IMG/VR virus record: IMGVR_UViG_3300048928_000297
Coordinates: 1 to 33,273 of that record
Strand: one strand, 5' to 3'
DNA: 33,273 nucleotides
From: a virus
Below are positions 1 through 33,261 of this stretch, in pieces (within the stretch, counting starts at the first letter, position 1; the number at the start of each line of letters is the position of its first letter). The notes beneath the pieces are model-generated. The model had not been told where the DNA came from, made no database searches, and saw nothing but the letters and a program-made list of their open reading frames with translations. Both the position numbers and the translations under genes were made by a program.

Positions 1-2850
1 ATCCACGAAACCCCAGCCCTTGGTCCGGGCCAGATCCATGCCCAGCTCGCGATACCCGAACAGACGGCGGTGGTGATAGTTCGGCGCGCCGCAAGTGGCG
101 ATGTGCACGCGGCAATCCGGGTTCTCGTCCTGGACGATCTGCACGCACTGCTCGACCTGGGAAACCCACGTCGGCGCCGCCTTGATCATTGCCCAGTCGC
201 CGACCAGGCCGGCCAGGCTGTCGGCTTGCGCAAAGTCATCGGCGCTGATCGGACGCTTGAACGTCGCCACGCCGGCTGCGTAGGTATCGATCAGCCGTAC
301 CGCGACGCGGCGATGGTCGCCATGGAAGGAGCCGATGATCAACGCATCCCCGGCAGCCGCCGAAATGGTGGCGCCCGCGGTGTTCAACGTGATGGACTTC
401 GCCGCGGCCGCAGCGATGGGGATCCGGTCGTCCAGCACCGTCTTATTCGGGGACGTTCCCGTGATCGAGTTGAAGTAGTTGCTGCTCTCGTCGTCCTTCA
501 ACTGCTGCGCCGTCACGCCCGTGCGCGTGACCCATCCCTTCGTGACGTGCGTAAGCCAATCGTCATTGGTGCTGGATTCCACCAGGAAGACGTCCGCTCC
601 CCATTCCGCCACGCAATCGATACGGTTAAGGAGCACATCGCTAGTCAGGAACAGTTCAGCCGACCAACCGCCAATGCCTGCGTTCATGACGTGATGCATG
701 CGATTCGTAACGAAGTTCAGATCCAACCACGGGGACCCACCCGTCGCCCGCGGATCCAGTGCCCGGACCACCAATCTAAAATGACGCTGCTTCGCCTCTC
801 CCAGCACGTAGGTGACGCAGGCGCGAGGATCACTATCCCGAAAACCCAGCCCGCTGGAGATCGACGCGGGTTGCGTCGTGTCCTCCGACACCGACCCATC
901 GCCAAAAGGCGATTCCAAAGGTGAATCCAGACCGACCCCGGTGTTGCCCAGCGTGCCGCGCATATAGGCGATGGACTCGCCATACTTGTAGGAACACGCC
1001 ACAGTGCCCGAGGGTGCCACTTTGAACCAGAGAACATGCGTAACCCTGTTGAACGAGGCGTTATAGCTGCGCACAACCATGTAGTCCCAGCCGGCCGGGA
1101 TTGCGGCGCCGCTGCCCTGAGTGTTCATGCCGCCGACCATGGGCGTACCGTTCACAGTCACCGCGTGGTCGTAGGTGAAGCCGCGCTGCAGGTCAAATTT
1201 GACGTTCGCACCGTTGCCCGCGAAGTTGGCCACGCCAGCGCCTTGAGGCTCGTCATTAAACGTACTGAACGAGGCGAACAGCTGATCGTCCATGTACACG
1301 TCAACCATTGCCGCGCCAGCATTCCCCCGTTCACGGCACAGGTTCACCGTCAGCTCATCGCCCCAAAGGTCGAATTCAGCAGACGCGTTGACACCTTGAA
1401 CCCGCCGAGCCGATCCCAGCCACAGATTCGGAGCCACAATCGTTTCAGCCGAAGGCGCGAGCTCAGACGCGTGGATTGACGTTGCGGCGCGCGTACGCAA
1501 GTACAGCTCGACGCCTCCCACATAGCTCAATTCGCCCAGGTATCCCTGCCCCCAAGTGATGCTGGAACCCGCCAGAGCGACCTTAATCGCCCGCGCGAGC
1601 GGGCGCATTGAGGCTTGGGAGTTCGCCGCACCTCCGCCGCGGTAGACGAGCTGCGCTGCGCGCTCAGGGTCCGGATAGCTCGGATCAATCACCAGGTTCG
1701 ACACAACGCTGGTAACCACGAACGGCCCGGTCAGGAGCGACCAATTAATGGTTACAGAGCCAGACACACCGCTGCCGTTGCGCTCGGAAAGGGGAACGGT
1801 CTGAATACCAGTGGGAGCAATCCCCGGATCGTCATACCCCGCTACGGTGCCCGCCCCGTCATGGATCAGGATTCGGTTGCCATAGGACTGATCCTTGGCG
1901 ACGACGCTCACCCGGTAGTTCTTGGCGCTATCGACGCCATCCAGCCAGATCCCCCGGATAGCGCTCGTCGCAGCACGCCAGCGCTCATTGCCCGCCAGCA
2001 CCAGATTTCGATAGTCCGCGCGCAACCAGGACGGCAGCATGCCTCGGTCGACGATCTGTCGAATGGCATCCAGCTCACGCGTCCGAGCGATCCGGAAAAG
2101 ACCGAGCGACGCAGAGTTGAGGACACCCGTGCTGGTGATTTCGCGGTAGTCGATATCAAGGTATGCCCGCAGCGAGGCGTCATTCGCCACAGACCCAATG
2201 ACGACGCGCGTCAATCCGCTGGCGTTGCGAGCGATATCCACGGCACCAGTATTGAGGACCGTCGCACCGTCGCTCAGCTTTGCAATGGCGATCCGATCCT
2301 TGTTCGTTGGATCCTGGTTGCAAATGACCGAGATTAGGTACTGCTCGTTGGGATCACCGTTCTCGATGCGGACCGACTTGATAGCCAGCGCCGCCTCTAT
2401 ACGCTTCTGCGTCGGCAAGAACCAATCGGTTTGACCAGAGCCGCTGAGATTGAGCACGGACGGATCCAGCCAGGGGCAAGCCTGCACGACCCTCAACAGG
2501 CTGTTGACGCGCGGCACGCTCGCCGGCTGAATTCCCGACCACAGCCAAGCCGTCCCGTTGAAAACGTAATAGCCGTTCTTGGACGCGTCCGAATCGTTCG
2601 TGACCTGCCCAGTCGTACCCGCAGGCGAACTCGTATCACTATTCATCGCGGCCGCGGTCGAATAGGTCCGCAAGTTTGCAGCGCCGGAGGCTACTTCCAG
2701 CACTTGCTGCGTCAGCGTGGCCAGGTTCTTGACATCATTGCCAATACGATTGACGTTCGGCTGCCCGACGCTTCCCGTGGCGTATCTATCGAGCGTTTCG
2801 GCATCTAGGCTGCCATTGATCAATTGCTGTGCAGTGAGGTATCCAGCCAT
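1..2850 (-). CDS. Tail fibre with SGNH-hydrolase domain (3' end missing)
   Basis: An open frame of 950 codons without a stop runs from the ATG at 2850 off the left edge, so the gene is partial. The first 120 residues look like a phage tail-fibre base, with a Ser/Thr/Asn-rich stretch. At residues 428-437 the segment GSSITWGQGY matches block I of SGNH/GDSL hydrolases (nucleophile candidate Ser430). Around residue 762 the sequence STNDDW resembles the block with the conserved Asn, and near the edge IATCGAPNYHH looks like the late part of such a fold. The family removes acyl groups from sugars or lipids, so a role in receptor or capsule deacetylation at the tail tip is inferred. It follows the J-like gene in the late operon but sits directly behind a terminator. 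The ribosome site is weak (GAG, 9 bases before ATG). Confidence 0.85.
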   Translation of the reverse strand, partial: MAGYLTAQQLINGSLDAETLDRYATGSVGQPNVNRIGNDVKNLATLTQQVLEVASGAANLRTYSTAAAMNSDTSSPAGTTGQVTNDSDASKNGYYVFNGTAWLWSGIQPASVPRVNSLLRVVQACPWLDPSVLNLSGSGQTDWFLPTQKRIEAALAIKSVRIENGDPNEQYLISVICNQDPTNKDRIAIAKLSDGATVLNTGAVDIARNASGLTRVVIGSVANDASLRAYLDIDYREITSTGVLNSASLGLFRIARTRELDAIRQIVDRGMLPSWLRADYRNLVLAGNERWRAATSAIRGIWLDGVDSAKNYRVSVVAKDQSYGNRILIHDGAGTVAGYDDPGIAPTGIQTVPLSERNGSGVSGSVTINWSLLTGPFVVTSVVSNLVIDPSYPDPERAAQLVYRGGGAANSQASMRPLARAIKVALAGSSITWGQGYLGELSYVGGVELYLRTRAATSIHASELAPSAETIVAPNLWLGSARRVQGVNASAEFDLWGDELTVNLCRERGNAGAAMVDVYMDDQLFASFSTFNDEPQGAGVANFAGNGANVKFDLQRGFTYDHAVTVNGTPMVGGMNTQGSGAAIPAGWDYMVVRSYNASFNRVTHVLWFKVAPSGTVACSYKYGESIAYMRGTLGNTGVGLDSPLESPFGDGSVSEDTTQPASISSGLGFRDSDPRACVTYVLGEAKQRHFRLVVRALDPRATGGSPWLDLNFVTNRMHHVMNAGIGGWSAELFLTSDVLLNRIDCVAEWGADVFLVESSTNDDWLTHVTKGWVTRTGVTAQQLKDDESSNYFNSITGTSPNKTVLDDRIPIAAAAAKSITLNTAGATISAAAGDALIIGSFHGDHRRVAVRLIDTYAAGVATFKRPISADDFAQADSLAGLVGDWAMIKAAPTWVSQVEQCVQIVQDENPDCRVHIATCGAPNYHHRRLFGYRELGMDLARTKGWGFVD

Positions 2851-2861
2851 TTGGAACTCGC

Positions 2862-2889
2862 AAAAAAAAGCCCCGCACGGGGCGGGGCT
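2862..2889 (-). terminator. Intrinsic terminator between tip gene and fibre gene
   Basis: On the minus strand a perfect 8-bp GC-rich stem (arms 2882-2889 and 2869-2876, loop 2877-2881) is followed at once by eight T residues (2862-2869). It lies just after the stop of the J-like gene and ends only 11 bases before the fibre ATG, so fibre expression needs read-through, antitermination or partial termination. Confidence 0.85.
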
Positions 2890-2907
2890 CATTGGGTTTG
2901 GTGAAAT

Positions 2908-5796
2908 CTAAGCGTGAAAATCGAGATCGTTCTGGTAGTACCTGGCGTCGTAGTTGATCGCCTTTAGCGGGATAGTCCCGTCGTCGTTCGGTGCTCCCTT
3001 CTCGTCGACCAAAAACGGCATGGCCTCCCGGGGGCTGGTTCCCTCGCCAATGATGTAAGTCGTCGGGTTGTAGCCCTCACCCCGCAGGATGATTGGTGTC
3101 CGCGGTTCACGTTCCAACAGGGCAAGCCGAGGACTTCCCCCAGATTGCACCGCCATCGTCTCAATGGTGGCGTCGCTGCTCTGAAGAAAAATGCGGTAGG
3201 TGCCGCCCGGCTTCCAGTCATAGGGCTGCGACAAGGCGACGAGCCTGCCGTCGTCCTTTGCCACATCCACAATCTCACCGTCGCTTCCCTGCGCCCGCGT
3301 GTTATCTGCGACCCGGATCCGCTCGGACACCGCAAGCAGGTTGGCCTCCGGCAATGCGTCGAACTCCGTCACCACATCCTGAAACTGCAATTTGTTCCAT
3401 GCGCGGTGCGCATGGATGTAGGCTTGCTCCCTGACCCGCACCCCCACCGAGTCATACCGCTTCGGATTTACTGCAGATCGGTCCTCGGGCAGGTAAATCG
3501 TCACCTGGGAATCGTCGTCGGGGTCAATCCACGGATACTCGATACCGTCGTTCTCCATCGCGCTGCCCTCGGTCCGCGTTTCGGAACCGGGCAACTTGTT
3601 GCGATGGTTGAACTGCAAAGAGGCATCTTCGGAAGCGCGCTCGAAAAACAGCTTGATCACGCTCCCTCGTCGATATGCGCGGCAGAACACCGCTTGCGCA
3701 ATCATGTCCAGCGTTTCCTCGAATGACAGATTGTCGCTATCGATGGTGTAGTTGAACTGCGCCACGTCGACGCCGAAGTAATCGCGGATCTCCTGCACCG
3801 TGTTGTAGATGTTGTCAAAGTCCACCTCAGCCGGCGCCCTATTCCCGATAAGGGGATCCAGGCACACGGCCGAAATGATGTCCGCGACATCGGTGGTCGG
3901 ATACAGCTCCGTCGTGAACGTCGACCCTGACACCCTGCGCGGCAGCTTGCGGGTCACCAGCAGATTCAGCTTTCGTTCCTTGACGGCTAAGGCGCCGTCC
4001 GTCGCAAACGTCACCGACTGCACCGTGGTCACATCGCCGAAATGAGCCCGGTCTACGGTAGAGCAGGCGTACAAGTCGCGCCATTGGATTTCGTCCACGA
4101 CGCTCCCCTCGAAGTCCGTATCCGAATTCGTCAGGCGACGAGCGCGCATCTGCCAGCGCTTGCTGGGCGCCCCGCCCAGCTCAACGTCAAGTGTGTCTGC
4201 GCGAACTACCTTCGTGACTGCCGAACCCCGGATCTCCCGATCGAACACCAGTACCGATCCGTACGGGTTGCCGTTGCCATCGACGCGCTGGGCCTCGAAC
4301 CTGTAGACCACATCGCGCCGGTACTGCTGGCGCCCGTTGTCCTTGTACAGGCCGTTGAGAGCAATAACATTGGCAATCACCCGCGTGATGGGCTGAACGC
4401 TCTCCACGGTGAACCAGCCCACCCAACGCTCACCCGTCGTGGAGATCGTAGGGTTCATGACCACCGAGACGCCGCCATAGTCGTTCTGCAAGGTGTCCCA
4501 TGCAGGATTGACCGCACTCGGGTTGTCCAGCGTCAGCAGTGACGAGGTCAAGGTATTGATCGTGTACATGCCGGACAGGTCAAACTGCACAATGTCAGAC
4601 GGCCTGGTCAGCGTAGGCGTGCCCGAGACGACATTCGGCGCCGTGCGAAAGGCCGCCCAGGCCGCCGAATTCTGCGAAATGTCCAATCGCACCGTTGTCA
4701 GCCCATCACTGAAACTGGCCCCCATAACCCCATATATCCCTGTAACGTTCCCCGTCGCCGTGTAGTCGAAATCCCCGTCGCCGCCAGTATGGTCGGTCCA
4801 GGAGACGGCACCGTTCGACAGCGTGACGACTTGACCGACCGACCATTCGGCCGCGTGGTTACCCTCAAAGGTCACCTCGCCCCAACCCGGCCGCATGGCG
4901 CTGTCGGTCCGGAAAGTCGCCCCCTCAGGCGGGCTGTACGAGTACGTCCCTTGTGTCTGTGCGGCATTCTGGATAGAGATAACCTCCCCAGCAATGAATA
5001 GCTCCGTGAAGTCCAGTTCGCCATCCTGCGACACGACCTCGTTTGGCGAACGAAATACCATGCCGCGACGTATCGCACTGCCCACGTCCTGAGGCTGCAA
5101 CACTTGGCCATTGACGCTGTTGATCCGCCTGCTGGAAATGACAGGCTGGTTGATCGCGTTGCCGATGCGAATCTGAGGCGCATGCCCACTATTGGGCGAC
5201 GTGAAGGGCGCGTAAACCTCTACAGAGGCGCCAGCGATTTGGGAGATTGGCGTGGTGTCGTCCCGTGCATCGTGGATCGCGTAGGCGCCACGCCCGATGC
5301 ACATGAACGCGATTTCCTTTTCGACGTGGTTCTCGAAGATCTTGTAAGGCTGGGCCAGCAGATCCGCCGTCGATCGGACCTTCCCCAGAATGTCCGGCAC
5401 CCGCCCGTTCACCCTAGCCTGATTCGTGCGTTCCGACAGGCCATTGTTCGGCGATTCCTGCTGCACATTCCGGGCGGTGGCGTTCGGTGGATCTGGCGTC
5501 AGAATGGACGTCAAGATCATCGAGGCAGTTGATGCTGCCAACGCGACAGCTATGGCCGTCCAAGTCAATCCCGCTCGCGGAAAGACTTCAACGACAAACG
5601 GTCCAGGCATTCCCCGCAGCGCGGAGACTTCGAGCGGGACCTTGGGCGTGACCACAGCTTGCGTGGCCATATCAGTGATGCGCGCACCCGGCGGGAAACG
5701 CGGCCCCAGTTCCGCCTTCAAAAACGAAAGCAAGTCATTGACTTGGTGCGTTTCCATCGCTCTATCGGGAGCTCGGTACAAGAGGACAGTGATCAC
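2908..5796 (-). CDS. Tail tip attachment protein, J-like (TipJ family)
   Basis: This 962-residue protein is the central tail-tip (host specificity) protein of siphophages, which joins the tail tube to the fibre and contacts the receptor. A hydrophobic stretch lies at about residues 77-98, followed by the region conserved in the TipJ group (RVNGRVPDILGKVRSTADLL) at about 125-145. The length fits the family. I choose the GTG at 5796 as start: it overlaps the stop of the upstream peptidase gene by GTGA and has GAGG 9 bases upstream. A longer open frame to 5895 would overlap that gene by over 100 bases. It is the last gene before the terminator at 2862-2889. Confidence 0.9.
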   Translation of the reverse strand: MITVLLYRAPDRAMETHQVNDLLSFLKAELGPRFPPGARITDMATQAVVTPKVPLEVSALRGMPGPFVVEVFPRAGLTWTAIAVALAASTASMILTSILTPDPPNATARNVQQESPNNGLSERTNQARVNGRVPDILGKVRSTADLLAQPYKIFENHVEKEIAFMCIGRGAYAIHDARDDTTPISQIAGASVEVYAPFTSPNSGHAPQIRIGNAINQPVISSRRINSVNGQVLQPQDVGSAIRRGMVFRSPNEVVSQDGELDFTELFIAGEVISIQNAAQTQGTYSYSPPEGATFRTDSAMRPGWGEVTFEGNHAAEWSVGQVVTLSNGAVSWTDHTGGDGDFDYTATGNVTGIYGVMGASFSDGLTTVRLDISQNSAAWAAFRTAPNVVSGTPTLTRPSDIVQFDLSGMYTINTLTSSLLTLDNPSAVNPAWDTLQNDYGGVSVVMNPTISTTGERWVGWFTVESVQPITRVIANVIALNGLYKDNGRQQYRRDVVYRFEAQRVDGNGNPYGSVLVFDREIRGSAVTKVVRADTLDVELGGAPSKRWQMRARRLTNSDTDFEGSVVDEIQWRDLYACSTVDRAHFGDVTTVQSVTFATDGALAVKERKLNLLVTRKLPRRVSGSTFTTELYPTTDVADIISAVCLDPLIGNRAPAEVDFDNIYNTVQEIRDYFGVDVAQFNYTIDSDNLSFEETLDMIAQAVFCRAYRRGSVIKLFFERASEDASLQFNHRNKLPGSETRTEGSAMENDGIEYPWIDPDDDSQVTIYLPEDRSAVNPKRYDSVGVRVREQAYIHAHRAWNKLQFQDVVTEFDALPEANLLAVSERIRVADNTRAQGSDGEIVDVAKDDGRLVALSQPYDWKPGGTYRIFLQSSDATIETMAVQSGGSPRLALLEREPRTPIILRGEGYNPTTYIIGEGTSPREAMPFLVDEKGAPNDDGTIPLKAINYDARYYQNDLDFHA

Positions 5797-19852: not shown

Positions 19853-20254
19853 TCATGTATAAATCGCGAAAATTCCCCTTTGCTTGATTGCATCAGATCG
19901 GGCTTGCCGCGCCTCCAACCAATCCCGCACCCGCCGATCAGCATTGCACAGGCGATTGTGCAGGGTTGCACGCGTGCAGCCCAACGCGGCGGCGATCTCC
20001 TGCATACCGCCTTCCCATCTGTAGGCAGCCATGACGGTTCGCTTCAGTTCGGCAGGAAGCTGCGCGATCGCGCGGTCAATCTCCAGGGCGCTCGCATCGA
20101 ACGCCGGGTCGGAATTCCGCCACCCAGCGCGCACATCATCGGTTTGGTCGACGCGGTTCGGGTCGTATGCCCTGGGCAGGCCGCCGCCGGTCCCGCTCAT
20201 CGTCCAGACCGCCCAGCCTTCGAGCCGCTTGTGTACCCATTGGATGCGTTCCAT
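19853..20254 (-). CDS. Q-like late regulator (sigma-70 region 4-like HTH)
   Basis: 133 residues. The start MERIQWVHKRLEGWAVW and a C-terminal helix-turn-helix (LPAELKRTVMAAYRWEGGMQ, then EIAAALGCTRATLHNRL, about 67-105) resemble phage Q-type antitermination or late activator proteins. Being the last early gene before the late operon fits late-gene control. Its ATG overlaps the stop of the upstream gene by one base (TGATG). I did not find a clear Q-dependent late promoter just downstream. The identification is by architecture and place. Confidence 0.7.
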   Translation of the reverse strand: MERIQWVHKRLEGWAVWTMSGTGGGLPRAYDPNRVDQTDDVRAGWRNSDPAFDASALEIDRAIAQLPAELKRTVMAAYRWEGGMQEIAAALGCTRATLHNRLCNADRRVRDWLEARQARSDAIKQRGIFAIYT

Positions 20255-20724
20255 CAGCCCACCTTGCGAACGCGGTCGCGATCATCGATCGCCTGCAAAA
20301 TCCGCGCCTTGTAGGCTTGCGGACTCTCGCCCAGGCGGGCGGTGTCGATCTGCAGTTGCCGCGCCATCGCGTCCATGCCGGCCCAGCTCGCCATCCAACC
20401 CGGCGCTGCCGCCTCGCCTTGAGGTGCCCGCGCCTGCTTCGGCTTAGGCAACTCGATCTCATCATCCCACCGCGCGCCGTTGAGCCACGTCGCCGGATGC
20501 GGGATGTATTGCCGATCGGTACCGCAGGCATTCCAGTACTCAACATGCCTCGGCAGCGCCTCGATAGCCGCGGCCTTTTCTTGAGGACGCAGCTTTGCCC
20601 ACGCCTTTTCGGCATCCCGCTTGCCGACCCGTCGCGGCCATGCGGCCCAGAAGTCGGCGAAATCTTGGGCCGGTCGCGGCGATCGCGCGGAATTTTCCGT
20701 AGGGACGAGCTTTAGTACATTCAT
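20254..20724 (-). CDS. Replication organiser-like protein
   Basis: 156 residues. The first 90 residues hold the motif seen in many phage replication proteins: DFADFWAAWPRRVGKRDAEK followed by YIPHPATWLNGARWDDE. In other phages this unit forms the C-terminal part of O-like or replisome-organising proteins, where it may contact the helicase loader. Here it stands alone, without an N-terminal origin-binding HTH. AGAGGTG lies 5-6 bases before the ATG. Position before the Q-like gene matches lambda gene O/P. Confidence 0.7.
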   Translation of the reverse strand: MNVLKLVPTENSARSPRPAQDFADFWAAWPRRVGKRDAEKAWAKLRPQEKAAAIEALPRHVEYWNACGTDRQYIPHPATWLNGARWDDEIELPKPKQARAPQGEAAAPGWMASWAGMDAMARQLQIDTARLGESPQAYKARILQAIDDRDRVRKVG

Positions 20725-21424: not shown

Positions 21425-21729
21425 GTTGGCGTGACGCCATGGAACGGAAAACAGCCAGGCATCCCAGCGATGCCTTCGACCTGCCGCGCGACGGAGTACA
21501 CATGGACAGGACGATGCGCGCCGGCCACCCGAATCCTGCCCACAACTTCCAGGGCGCCTGACGCATTGAGTCGACTGCAAATGTGGCGCGCCGACACGAT
21601 AGAGAGCTTCAGTTCCTGCGCGATTTGCGCAGCCGTCATAGAGCGATCGGAAAGGAGTTCGCAAACACGCTGGGCCGAAGGCCCGAGCGCGCCTACAGGG
21701 CGCCCTCGCCGGCTACGACCGGGCGTCAT
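21421..21729 (-). CDS. Winged-HTH DNA-binding protein
   Basis: 102 residues. A helix-turn-helix at about 28-62 (SDRSMTAAQIAQELKLSIVS followed by ARHICSRLNASGALEVV) and a short wing look like a MarR- or Rrf-type small regulator. It overlaps the CII-like gene (ATGA at 21726-21729) and the next gene (ATGA at 21421-21424), so the three genes are one coupled unit. Target unknown. Confidence 0.75.
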   Translation of the reverse strand: MTPGRSRRGRPVGALGPSAQRVCELLSDRSMTAAQIAQELKLSIVSARHICSRLNASGALEVVGRIRVAGAHRPVHVYSVARQVEGIAGMPGCFPFHGVTPT

Positions 21730-22280
21730 TCGTCCGCCCCTAGGGTTCCAAGGGTCACCCCCTCGGCCGCCACGCGCTGCACATTCCGAATCAAGCGCAA
21801 CAGCATGCGGATTTCGTCATAGGCCTGAGCCTCGATCGCATCCGCCTCTCGGTCGGTAATGCGGCGGTCACGCAAAGCGCCGGCCAGCAACCCGGACAAG
21901 ATCCCGCCCTGCTCTTGCAGCGTGAATCCTTTCTCGACAATCGCGGCGATCTCGCACGGCCAGCGACCGCCTGGCGGTGGCGCATCAAGCTCGATGGCGG
22001 CAAGGTCGAATCGGGCGGCAAGAGCCATGATCCAGCTGCGCGCGCCGCCTTGACACGGCGACATGCGCAGCAGGTATTCGGTTATCAATTCGGCGTCATC
22101 CACCGACAAGCGTTCGCCGGGATCAGATCCGTCGAGCTTCTTGTACAGAGTCTTCGGTGCGATGCGCCGGTCGCGGAATTCAGCCGCCCAGGCACAGAAA
22201 CCCGCGACGCCGTCCGGCGACTGGCGCAAAGCGGTATAGATCGCCCCGCGCCAATGGGTCTCGGAATAGTGCTTGGTCAT
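21726..22280 (-). CDS. CII(CP76)-like regulatory protein
   Basis: 184 residues. The N-terminal third (SETHWRGAIYTALRQSPDGV, then RRIAPKTLYKKLDGSDPGER and LSVDDAELITEYLLR) resembles the phage CII regulators of the CP76 type, which help establish lysogeny. The C-terminal part has long helices (READAIEAQAYDEIRMLLRL) and may oligomerise. The ATG at 22280 has GGGTGG upstream; a GTG at 22298 has none. It lies downstream of cro in the P_R transcript, as cII does in lambda. Activated promoters are not identified. Confidence 0.65.
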   Translation of the reverse strand: MTKHYSETHWRGAIYTALRQSPDGVAGFCAWAAEFRDRRIAPKTLYKKLDGSDPGERLSVDDAELITEYLLRMSPCQGGARSWIMALAARFDLAAIELDAPPPGGRWPCEIAAIVEKGFTLQEQGGILSGLLAGALRDRRITDREADAIEAQAYDEIRMLLRLIRNVQRVAAEGVTLGTLGADE

Positions 22281-22301
22281 ACCGCCACCCGAGGACACAA
22301 C

Positions 22302-23142: not shown

Positions 23143-23373
23143 TCAAGCATGGACAGCACTCTCCGGACCTGGGTTCTCTGCCTCATCTCGGGATGCGAAG
23201 TAGTTATGCAAGCTCTGAACTGTCTGGATCCGCGGGTCTTTAACCTCGCCATATCGCAGTTTTCGCAGCGTGCTTTCCGGCACGCCTGACCTGCGCGATA
23301 CCTCGCCCAGGTCGGAATGCCGCACTTCGCGCAAGCGCGCCAACACCGGAGAAAGAAAGTCGGTCTTTTGCAT
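23143..23373 (-). CDS. Cro-like HTH repressor
   Basis: 76 residues. A helix-turn-helix at about 18-42 (HSDLGEVSRRSGVPESTLRK) and the divergent placement to the CI-like gene across three operators make it the Cro-like lytic repressor. The start is not certain: the ATG at 23373 lies about 8 bases from the predicted -10 box of P_R and would be on a leaderless message; an ATG at 23382 lies inside the -10 box and is unlikely. Confidence 0.75.
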   Translation of the reverse strand: MQKTDFLSPVLARLREVRHSDLGEVSRRSGVPESTLRKLRYGEVKDPRIQTVQSLHNYFASRDEAENPGPESAVHA

Positions 23374-23380
23374 AGGCCGC

Positions 23381-23409
23381 ATTCTCAACCCATTTATGGG
23401 TTGCGTCAA
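23381..23409 (-). promoter_or_regulatory. P_R promoter (leftward, for cro and late functions)
   Basis: On the minus strand TTGACG (23409-23404), exactly 17 bases, then GAGAAT (23386-23381). The spacer is occupied by the perfect operator at 23386-23403, the same layout as P_L. Predicted transcription start near 23373-23375, next to the ATG of the Cro-like gene. Confidence 0.65.
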
Positions 23410-23455
23410 CCCACACTTGGGTAGCGAATCCCGGCATATTCCCAAAGATGGGTAA
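23386..23455. promoter_or_regulatory. O_R-like operator cluster (three sites)
   Basis: Three 18-bp sites built on CCC-N6-GGG with flanking CAA/TTG: 23386-23403 (perfect palindrome CAACCCAT-TT-ATGGGTTG), 23407-23424 (CAACCCACACTTGGGTAG) and 23438-23455 (ATTCCCAAAGATGGGTAA). Centre-to-centre distances are 21 and 31 bp, so all sites face almost the same side of the helix. They lie between the divergent Cro-like and CI-like genes. Confidence 0.88.
23435..23447 (+). promoter_or_regulatory. Candidate P_RM -10 box for the CI-like gene
   Basis: CATATT (23435-23440) could be the -10 box of a maintenance promoter. The -35 region (about 23412-23417) is poor and covered by the middle operator, as expected for a promoter that needs repressor-mediated activation. 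The start would be near 23447-23448, right at the first possible ATG. Confidence 0.35.
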
Positions 23456-23855
23456 GAACGCTATGAAAATCCTCGCCGACAACTTGAACAGGCTGATCGG
23501 GCCAGGCAAGAAATTCGCATCGAATGAAGCGGCCGCAGCTGCTTCCGGAGTGGGCCGCTCCACTATTGACCGCGCTCGCCGCGCCGAAGTCAGCCTGAAG
23601 ATTGATAACGTGGCCGAACTCGCCAGAGCATTTGGCGTCGAGCCATGGGAGCTTCTTTACCCCAATCTCAACGCTGAGCACCGACCGTCCGTGGGTGCCA
23701 AGCCGCAAGAATGGCCGCTACCCGGGGTGTCGCCCGACGATTTCCGACTCATTCCGCAAGATGAGAGGGAGGAGGTCGTTGCCCTGGTAAAGTCAAAAGT
23801 CACTCGACATCGCTCTAACCATGAGAAAAGCCCGAGCCCGAAGCGCGCCGCATAA
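23448..23855 (+). CDS. CI-like repressor without peptidase domain
   Basis: 135 residues from the ATG at 23448, or 130 from the ATG at 23463. A helix-turn-helix occupies about residues 25-47 (FASNEAAAAASGVGRSTIDR), followed by DNVAELARAFGVEPWELL, a typical XRE-type layout. The rest is short, charged and without a LexA/S24 peptidase (no Ser-Lys catalytic pair or Ala-Gly cleavage site). The first ATG lies inside the third operator and may be used on a leaderless message; no good ribosome site precedes either ATG. It is the likely immunity repressor. Confidence 0.75.
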   Translation: MGKNAMKILADNLNRLIGPGKKFASNEAAAAASGVGRSTIDRARRAEVSLKIDNVAELARAFGVEPWELLYPNLNAEHRPSVGAKPQEWPLPGVSPDDFRLIPQDEREEVVALVKSKVTRHRSNHEKSPSPKRAA

Positions 23856-23914
23856 ATCCGGGCAGTTGTCGCTTGTGTGGTCGTGCGGAAGGCTATTAGA
23901 GGACGCGTAAACGA

Positions 23915-24346
23915 ATGACAAAGTACCTGCTCGTCGCCTTACTAGCTGTAGGCTTGGTGGGCTGTGCCACGAAGAACTATGGGCGGCAAGGCCAACTTTC
24001 CGACTATGAAAAACAGACAATGTCCTGCTCGGACATTGACCTGGAAGAAGCAAAAGTCGGGGGATGGATGGCCACCATCAATCAGGAAAGTGGATTCGAT
24101 GGGCGCGATGCCCTCGCAGTTATGGGCGACTTCGGTATCGGGAACTCAATGGAAAAGCGCGCAGCATTGAAGTCGGCGAACGCGCGCCTTTGCCAGCTGC
24201 AGACCCTTGCCGTATCCAAACAATGTAGACCCGAGCCTCCCGTCGAAGCCGTCGCGCCGCCCAAACCGGTGCATTCTCAGACGGATCCGCAGTCAATGCG
24301 ATTGACTGGAATCAATGAGCCGAAGAATCCCTGCCTAAAGATGTGA
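23915..24346 (+). CDS. Lipoprotein in rex position (lysogeny-linked)
   Basis: 143 residues with a lipoprotein signal: hydrophobic core residues 4-15 and lipobox LVGC with Cys17 as lipidated residue. The next residues (ATK) lack the inner-membrane Asp signal, so outer-membrane location is expected. The mature part has two further Cys residues in the core and a Pro-rich tail (PEPPVEAVAPPKPV). It lies between the CI-like gene and the O_L cluster, the place of lambda rex genes, so it is probably made in the lysogen. Exclusion or host-modifying roles are inferred. Confidence 0.75.
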   Translation: MTKYLLVALLAVGLVGCATKNYGRQGQLSDYEKQTMSCSDIDLEEAKVGGWMATINQESGFDGRDALAVMGDFGIGNSMEKRAALKSANARLCQLQTLAVSKQCRPEPPVEAVAPPKPVHSQTDPQSMRLTGINEPKNPCLKM

Positions 24347-24432
24347 ACGCGCATCGGTAGGCAGATTTCGTACGAACTTCGCCCCAGACACGCCTGGAAC
24401 CCAGCGCCACTTTCAAAACAGCACCCACAAAA

Positions 24433-24503
24433 CAACCCATAAACGGGTTGTAAAAACCCATCAATGGGTTTAATATCGCCCCTGACAACCCATTTATGGG
24501 TTT
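24433..24503. promoter_or_regulatory. O_L-like operator cluster (three sites)
   Basis: Three 18-bp sites of the same consensus as O_R: 24433-24450 (CAACCCATAAACGGGTTG), 24454-24471 (AAACCCATCAATGGGTTT) and 24486-24503 (CAACCCATTTATGGGTTT). Centre distances are 21 and 32 bp, the same pattern as O_R. The two clusters are about 1.05 kb apart and could be joined by a repressor loop. Confidence 0.88.
24448..24476 (+). promoter_or_regulatory. P_L promoter (rightward early operon)
   Basis: TTGTAA (24448-24453), 17-base spacer, TAATAT (24471-24476): close to the sigma-70 consensus. The middle operator fills the spacer exactly, so repressor binding would block RNA polymerase. Transcription should start near 24483 and run through the operon up to the integrase. 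Confidence 0.8.
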
Positions 24504-31865: not shown

Positions 31866-32210
31866 ATGGCCAGTAGCGACGAAGAAACCGCCCTTACCCT
31901 CCAGGAAGCGGCTGCGCGCCTGAAGTTGTCGTACAGCACTGTGTTCGCCTATCGACAGCGCATCGGCTTTCGAATTCCCGGATCTAGAGTGTGGAGAGTT
32001 TGGCCCTCCCAGCTTGCCCTGCTGACCGAAAAAAGCTCAAATGTGACCCGGCTATCGCTGCTGGTCGACGGAGAACCCACATGTCAATCCGCAGAGATAA
32101 AGAGTCCGGCGTTTGGCAGATCGACATCTGCACGCCAGGCATCCCGAGAATTAGATGTACTGCTGGCACAACCGACAAAAAGGCGGCACAGGAGTACCAC
32201 GACCGGCTGA
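31866..32210 (+). CDS. Excisionase-like HTH protein
   Basis: 114 residues as an open frame; only the first 60 are credible as a domain. The sequence ALTLQEAAARLKLSYSTVFA then RQRIGFRIPGSRVWRVWPSQ is a MerR/excisionase-type HTH. The last 43 codons overlap the integrase gene and look less like protein, so the active part is short. Position before int is that of xis. The ATG follows the previous stop directly; no strong ribosome site. Confidence 0.65.
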   Translation: MASSDEETALTLQEAAARLKLSYSTVFAYRQRIGFRIPGSRVWRVWPSQLALLTEKSSNVTRLSLLVDGEPTCQSAEIKSPAFGRSTSARQASRELDVLLAQPTKRRHRSTTTG

Positions 32211-33166
32211 AGTCCGACGCGTGGCGCAAGGTTAAGTTGGGTGAAGAGCCCAACCACTCTCTGGACGAAGCTGCGTTGCAAACGCTCAAACTGTCCGAGG
32301 GGCAACGCGACTATGACGCTAAGGTGCGCCACATCAAATATTGGCGCGCCGCACTCGGCGGCAGCACAGCGGTCAGCTCTTTAACAAGCGGAACCATCCT
32401 CGCGAAGCTTCCAACGCACAGCACTCATAAGCATCGGAAGCCGAAGCCATTGAGTGCCGGCGCGAAAAATCGGTACCTCGCGACGATGCGGCGCGTACTT
32501 TCACTTTGCGTCGAATGGGGCTGGCTCAGCAGAGCGCCGAAACTGACAAAATTTGAAGAGCCGGACGTACGCGTACGTTGGGAGCCGTCGCCCGTTATCG
32601 TCAAGATCATCCAAGCGATGTCCACTCAATGGATGCAGGAGGTCAGCCTGTTCGCCGTTGCCACGGGCATGCGCGCTACGGAGGTTTTATCCCTCACCTG
32701 GGCCCAAGTCGATTTGGAGAAGCGGCACGCCTGGATCACCCATGGGCGCGCAAAAAATAAGCGTGCACGTGCAGTGCCATTAAACTCCGATGCTGCCGGA
32801 GTATTGCAACGTCGCCTCGGCATACACCCGACACTGGTCTTTACCAGGCGCGCAAGGGCCGATCGGGAACCGGCCCAAATCAGCCAGATTGACGCGTCGA
32901 TTCTTTCCGCCGCGTGCAAGGCAGTGGGGATCGTAGATTTTCGATTCCACGATTTCCGGCATACGTGGGCATCGTGGCACGTGCAAGCTGGGACGCCCCT
33001 TATGGTCTTAAAGGAATTGGGCGGCTGGGAACGAATCGAGATGGTTCAGAAGTATGCCCACCTCGCCCCGACGCACCTTGCCCACCACGCTGAGAACGTC
33101 AAGATTGCGTCAACCTGGACGCCGGAAACGAAACAGCCGCCATTGCTGGCGGCTGTAGGTACCTGA
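32081..33166 (+). CDS. Tyrosine-recombinase integrase
   Basis: 361 residues. The catalytic residues are visible: Arg198 in TGMRATEVLSL, His290 and Arg293 in FHDFRHTWASW, Trp316 in KELGGWERIE, and Tyr325 in QKYAHLAP. Lys225 or Lys227 probably completes the set. The N-terminal part carries a SAM-like core-binding domain (about 55-150). The ATG at 32081 with GGAG 7 bases before is preferred over 31991, whose extra 30 residues are out of family. The gene ends 17 bases from a tRNA gene on the other strand, a standard arrangement for tRNA-targeted integration. Confidence 0.93.
   Translation: MSIRRDKESGVWQIDICTPGIPRIRCTAGTTDKKAAQEYHDRLKSDAWRKVKLGEEPNHSLDEAALQTLKLSEGQRDYDAKVRHIKYWRAALGGSTAVSSLTSGTILAKLPTHSTHKHRKPKPLSAGAKNRYLATMRRVLSLCVEWGWLSRAPKLTKFEEPDVRVRWEPSPVIVKIIQAMSTQWMQEVSLFAVATGMRATEVLSLTWAQVDLEKRHAWITHGRAKNKRARAVPLNSDAAGVLQRRLGIHPTLVFTRRARADREPAQISQIDASILSAACKAVGIVDFRFHDFRHTWASWHVQAGTPLMVLKELGGWERIEMVQKYAHLAPTHLAHHAENVKIASTWTPETKQPPLLAAVGT
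33133..33156. terminator. Hairpin at integrase 3' end (weak terminator candidate)
   Basis: A perfect 10-bp GC-rich stem with a 4-base loop, within the last codons of int. No T run follows directly on either strand, so efficient termination is doubtful. A second, weaker hairpin (CCTGA/TCAGG, 33162-33175) lies between it and the tRNA gene. Confidence 0.4.
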
Positions 33167-33182
33167 TTTCTCAGGATTTCTT

Positions 33183-33261
<79 letters not shown>

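Follow-up and report, generated by a model that had tools for sequence, protein, structure and literature searches.

The window, by which we mean the whole stretch of 33,273 nucleotides that was analysed (viral record IMGVR_UViG_3300048928_000297), carries two divergent genes encoding helix-turn-helix (HTH) proteins: a Cro-like protein of 76 residues on the minus strand (23143-23373; phrog_9425, E 6e-15) and a CI-like repressor of 135 residues on the plus strand (23448-23855), which matches the Pfam family HTH_3. The repressor gene is followed by a lipoprotein gene (23915-24346, plus strand; phrog_10370, E 5e-36), which occupies the accessory slot between cI and O_L that corresponds to the position of rex in lambda. 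On the minus strand the P_R operon additionally encodes a CII-like protein (21726-22298; phrog_101, E 1e-19, and Phage_CP76), a replication initiation-like protein (20254-20724; phrog_270, E 5e-21) and, by a weak match, a Q-like antiterminator (19853-20254; phrog_79, E 1.6e-5). On the plus strand the P_L-side early operon has an integrase gene at its far end (32081-33166; phrog_1, E 4e-52). The gene order is lambda-like but turned round, with the Cro-like, CII-like, replication and Q-like genes on the minus strand and the CI-like gene, lipoprotein gene, early operon and integrase on the plus strand. A tRNA-Met gene adjoins the integrase gene (32081-33261) and is a likely attachment site.

Six candidate operators of 18 bp lie in two clusters, which flank the CI-like and lipoprotein genes as the initial annotation had stated. 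The O_R cluster consists of O_R1 (CAACCCATTTATGGGTTG, 23386-23403), O_R2 (CAACCCACACTTGGGTAG, 23407-23424) and a candidate O_R3 (ATTCCCAAAGATGGGTAA, 23438-23455), the last of which contains the CI-like start codon; the O_L cluster consists of O_L2 (CAACCCATAAACGGGTTG, 24433-24450), O_L1 (AAACCCATCAATGGGTTT, 24454-24471) and a third O_L site (CAACCCATTTATGGGTTT, 24486-24503). Five of the six match the 18-mer CAACCCATNNATGGGTTG with zero to three mismatches (none at 23386, one each at 24433 and 24486, two at 24454 and three at 23407), while shuffled sequences averaged 0.07 matches, and five were not reached in any of 100 shuffles. At the same threshold no further copies were found in the whole 33,273-base record, the motif being present only at the switch. 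The form that had been ascribed to all six sites thus holds for five, whereas the 23438 site, with five mismatches, shares it only loosely; this candidate is supported by its conserved position and not by its sequence. Three sites are near-perfect, and the degenerate ones are 23407 and above all 23438. The sites start 21 and 31 bp apart in the O_R cluster (23386, 23407, 23438) and 21 and 32 bp apart in the O_L cluster (24433, 24454, 24486), exactly the centre distances first reported, and the distance from first site to first site between the clusters is 1047 bp.

The predicted P_R promoter, TTGACG-17-GAGAAT, lies on the minus strand (23381-23409; -35 at 23409-23404, -10 at 23386-23381) and has an equivalent in most relatives, and the predicted P_L promoter, TTGTAA-17-TAATAT, lies on the plus strand (24448-24476; -35 at 24448-24453, -10 at 24471-24476). 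At both, the -35 box begins within one operator and the 17-bp spacer is occupied by another, in keeping with the earlier observation of an operator inside each spacer: O_R2 overlaps the -35 box of P_R and O_R1 sits in its spacer, while the end of O_L2 forms the start of the P_L -35 box and O_L1 sits in the P_L spacer. The common unit of the two clusters is this 21-bp pair, which is found in opposite orientation at P_R and P_L. Comparison of 22 O_L loci placed the P_L -35 at +14 or +15 from the first O_L site in every one; the 21 others have a TTGAC-type -35 at the same place, the window's TTGTAA being weaker. Of the third sites, that of O_R lies towards the repressor gene and covers its start codon, and that of O_L is downstream of the P_L start, at about +4 to +21 of the transcript. 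As the third sites differ in place, near-identical cluster coordinates do not imply identical roles, and the almost identical geometry previously claimed for the clusters is borne out by the coordinates but breaks down when the promoters are taken as the reference. The third O_L site was itself ruled out as the P_L operator, the conserved -35/-10 straddling the middle site.

The best candidate for the -10 of a repressor promoter (P_RM) is a CATATT box on the plus strand (23435-23440), which has CATAGT or CATATT equivalents in relatives and in the close clades is followed, at a distance of 7 nt, by the CI-like ATG, inside the third O_R site. A P_RM with O_R2 in its spacer (TTGCGT-17-GCGAAT) is possible, but its -10 is poorly conserved in the clade of Achromobacter phage CF418P1, and for this reason the CATATT box is preferred. 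No recognisable -35 was seen upstream of this box. The O_R2 centre lies at about -32 from the predicted P_RM start, compared with the usual activator position of -42, near which there is no operator. Given the lack of both a clear -35 and a site near -42, lambda-type positive autoregulation is not supported. We place the CI-like start at 23448 because CF418P1 has only that ATG; an alternative start at 23463 was dropped, this second ATG being missing in CF418P1. In the window and close relatives, 7 nt separate the P_R -10 from the Cro-like ATG downstream of it; family-wide, this ATG is found 12-14 nt from the core of O_R1. This proximity to the -10 leaves no room for a leader, and the Cro-like message is accordingly predicted to be leaderless; the repressor message is probably leaderless too.

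Relatives with repressors 28-72% identical to that of the window keep both clusters; they come from IMG/VR, a Bordetella trematum genome and phage CF418P1. When sought in close relatives the sites and spacings proved to be present rather than absent, so that the proposal of the initial annotation survived this comparison. O_R1 keeps its position and form in the tabulated relatives, and O_R2 lies 20-22 bp from it in nearly all of them. O_R3 is kept as CCC-N6-GGG in the close clade and in three further loci (L085, L063 and L068), is degenerate in the CF418P1 clade and is absent in more distant relatives. Where O_L is present, the best triples in most relatives reach scores of 24-30 out of 30, as against 16-19 in shuffled DNA (the stretch of L010 ends before O_L). 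The third O_L site is kept in the window and CF418P1 clades, in which 52-54 bp, or about five helical turns, separate the outer O_L sites. Two loci (L069, L070) give no clean fit to the pattern.

The prophage of B. trematum LMG 13506 (NZ_FKBR01000032) shares both clusters, the 21/31 spacing and a CI-like protein 70% identical to that of the window, but has other cargo between cI and O_L. CF418P1 (OQ817832, L015) has the same operators, both clusters and the same gene order, with a Cro-like protein 64% and a CI-like protein 33-37% identical; it differs in its more degenerate O_R2 and O_R3 and in the two lipoprotein genes in its slot. Its genes next to the switch are annotated only as hypothetical, and a literature search found no paper on it. 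The deposited gene calls at 2418-4411 of CF418P1 look wrong, since a 1.5-kb ORF is annotated over the Cro-like gene on the opposite strand and the repressor is given a start upstream of its likely ATG. A literature search likewise found nothing on these operators, and only one published representative of the phage group was found.

A scan of IMG/VR (2.9 million viral contigs) for nothing but the operator pair recovered 12 stretches. In each of them a CI-like ATG stands about 60-62 nt from O_R1, with a Cro-like ATG on the opposite strand, and this includes three (L052, L054 and L057) that encode very diverged proteins. A scan for the promoter module (operator-TTGAC-operator) recovered 34 stretches, compared with none for a mirrored, complement-read control. 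Most of the new stretches have CI-like ORFs with Cro-like ORFs beside them, and O_R1 is usually 59-65 nt from the CI-like start. In L080, L091 and L098 the module is near the stretch end, and these three count as candidates only; L093, a G+C-rich inverted repeat in which no switch genes were detected, is probably a chance match. Genome searches across the order and the phylum yielded nothing more. Clustering of 46 repressor sequences at 50% identity gave 16 groups. Two loci (L095, L054) are compact, with two opposed operator-promoter modules about 500-750 bp apart and little or no cargo between repressor and O_L. Distances between O_R and O_L range from 517 to 1657 bp among the loci and show no consistent multiples of 10.5; phase-locked looping is therefore unsupported, and looping as such is compatible with the distances without being suggested by them.

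In the relatives, the genes between cI and O_L code for unrelated proteins, most of them exported or located in the membrane (lipoproteins, DUF2569, DUF3251). In the window, L009, L011, L012, L015, L025, L026 and others the slot is taken up by lipoproteins or membrane proteins that are not related, and the slot protein of L025 resembles superinfection-exclusion (Sie-like) proteins.

Searches of the CI-like protein against Pfam up to E 1 matched only HTH families and detected no S24 domain. Its profile match to SPC32H Rep (5d4z, E 2e-12) spans residues 10-72, the DNA-binding domain, and SPC32H Rep is also the top Foldseek match of its low-confidence model (pLDDT 65; 110 columns, rmsd 8.4). Judged by its sequence, the repressor belongs to the epsilon15/SPC32H Rep type, which is without an S24 autocleavage domain. 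It is homologous to these repressors across the HTH and is short like them; Rep differs in having an extra N-terminal part that is missing from the window protein.

Across the relatives the outer bases of the operator co-vary with recognition-helix residues of both the Cro-like and the CI-like protein, although the lineages are not independent and the comparison carries no phylogenetic correction. Thus, the TTCCC-operator phages L063 and L068 have KLYYGEV in the Cro-like and GKST in the CI-like protein, where the window, with its AACCC operators, has KLRYGEV and GRST. Furthermore, the TACCC-operator phages are without the Cro-like arginine that goes with AACCC and most GACCC operators. The TTCCC-N6-GGGAA operators of L063 and L068 occupy unchanged positions, and both HTH proteins of these phages carry corresponding changes. 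This pattern supports a reading of the sites by both proteins. That only one protein, most likely the Cro-like one, reads them, with the CI-like protein acting elsewhere or indirectly, is the alternative that fares best: the Cro-like recognition helix hardly varies among phages with an unchanged operator, whereas identity of the CI-like protein drops to about 30%. However, the CI-like helices also change with the operator (GRST with AACCC, GKST with TTCCC), and the start of the CI-like gene is itself covered by the sites, which makes this alternative improbable.

Recognition by both proteins would fit a lambda-type arrangement, in which two-operator control is textbook knowledge. As in lambda (NC_001416), cro and cI are divergent with O_R between them, and accessory genes follow cI and precede O_L and P_L. 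Inspection of the lambda record confirmed that there too the -35 opens with the final TTG of O_R2 or O_L2, and that the spacers contain O_R1 and O_L1. Unlike lambda, the window has the operator AACCC-N6-GGGTT, spacings of 21 and 31/32 bp (20-24 in lambda), a third O_L site downstream of P_L (lambda O_L3 is upstream), a repressor without an S24 domain, and a Cro-like message that is predicted to be leaderless; the first sites of its two clusters are 1.05 kb apart, as opposed to about 2.4 kb from O_R1 to O_L1 in lambda. The comparative evidence thus backs the view first put forward for this locus, of a lambda-like O_R/O_L logic with another operator and another repressor type and about 1 kb between the clusters, and at the promoters the correspondence with lambda is even closer than had been proposed.

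The kinship of the repressor to the epsilon15/SPC32H repressors, though distant, raises the alternative that the switch works as in epsilon15, the repressor acting from scattered operators and the lambda-like clustering being secondary. Epsilon15 does have sites on both sides of its repressor gene, but its operator is TTACC-N5-GGTAA, with spacings of 17 bp upstream and 62/76 bp downstream, and its P_L operators are not embedded in the promoter spacer; here a 20-22 bp pair fused to the -35 recurs family-wide, and the fixed, spacer-embedded pair is already present in relatives. We accordingly regard this alternative as decidedly unlikely. In the epsilon15 record (L016) TTACC-N5-GGTAA sites were located at 1016, 1078, 3627, 3644, 4368, 4430 and 4506; the pair at 3627 and 3644, between gp39 and the repressor gene, and the site at 1016 are not annotated there as repressor sites, unlike the others. 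Clustered near-palindromes also occur at replication iterons and host regulator sites, yet binding of a host regulator or service in another DNA process such as replication is very hard to credit when the motif occurs in this record only at the switch and the relatives' operators (AACCC, GACCC, TACCC, TTCCC) vary with the phage's own HTH proteins.

Based on these observations we propose that the window very probably contains a temperate-phage immunity switch built on the lambda plan around a small Rep-type repressor. In the lysogen the CI-like repressor would bind O_R1/O_R2 and O_L1/O_L2, and, bound at the -35-overlapping and spacer operators, would shut both P_R (Cro-like, CII-like, replication and Q-like genes) and P_L (the early operon through to the integrase). 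Binding at O_R3, over the repressor's own start, would limit repressor synthesis, while the third O_L site, just past the P_L start, would be a further obstacle to early transcription. The Cro-like protein probably recognises these sites too, with a different preference, and would tip the switch to lysis. The spacings of about two and three helical turns would place the sites on one DNA face, an arrangement favourable to cooperative binding and perhaps to looping between O_R and O_L through repressor tetramers. The sites, their spacings and conservation, the overlap of promoters and operators, the gene order and the repressor family can be read from the sequences; protein binding, cooperativity, looping, autoregulation, leaderless messages and induction without autocleavage are inferred. 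A bolder and rather doubtful extension is that this phage family kept or evolved the full lambda promoter-operator design with a non-self-cleaving Rep-type repressor, whose Rep-like tetramers would link operators inside each cluster as well as across the two, and that, both regulators being leaderless, the choice between lysis and lysogeny would also be set at leaderless translation.

The presence of sites on both sides of the repressor gene is already known from epsilon15; what is new is that the lambda promoter-operator module is combined with a Rep-type repressor, with a third O_L site downstream of P_L and with regulators predicted to be leaderless, in a large phage group. Dozens of phages, most of them unstudied, have this layout, and a single pattern, with 34 matches against 0 in the control, finds such switches. 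The overlap of promoter and operator known from lambda can hence be read from sequence alone in a broad group of phages with another repressor type. These phages offer a wealth of natural variation in which recognition helices co-vary with operator bases, and they allow a test of whether cooperative two-operator control is still within reach of a repressor without the lambda-type C-terminal domain.
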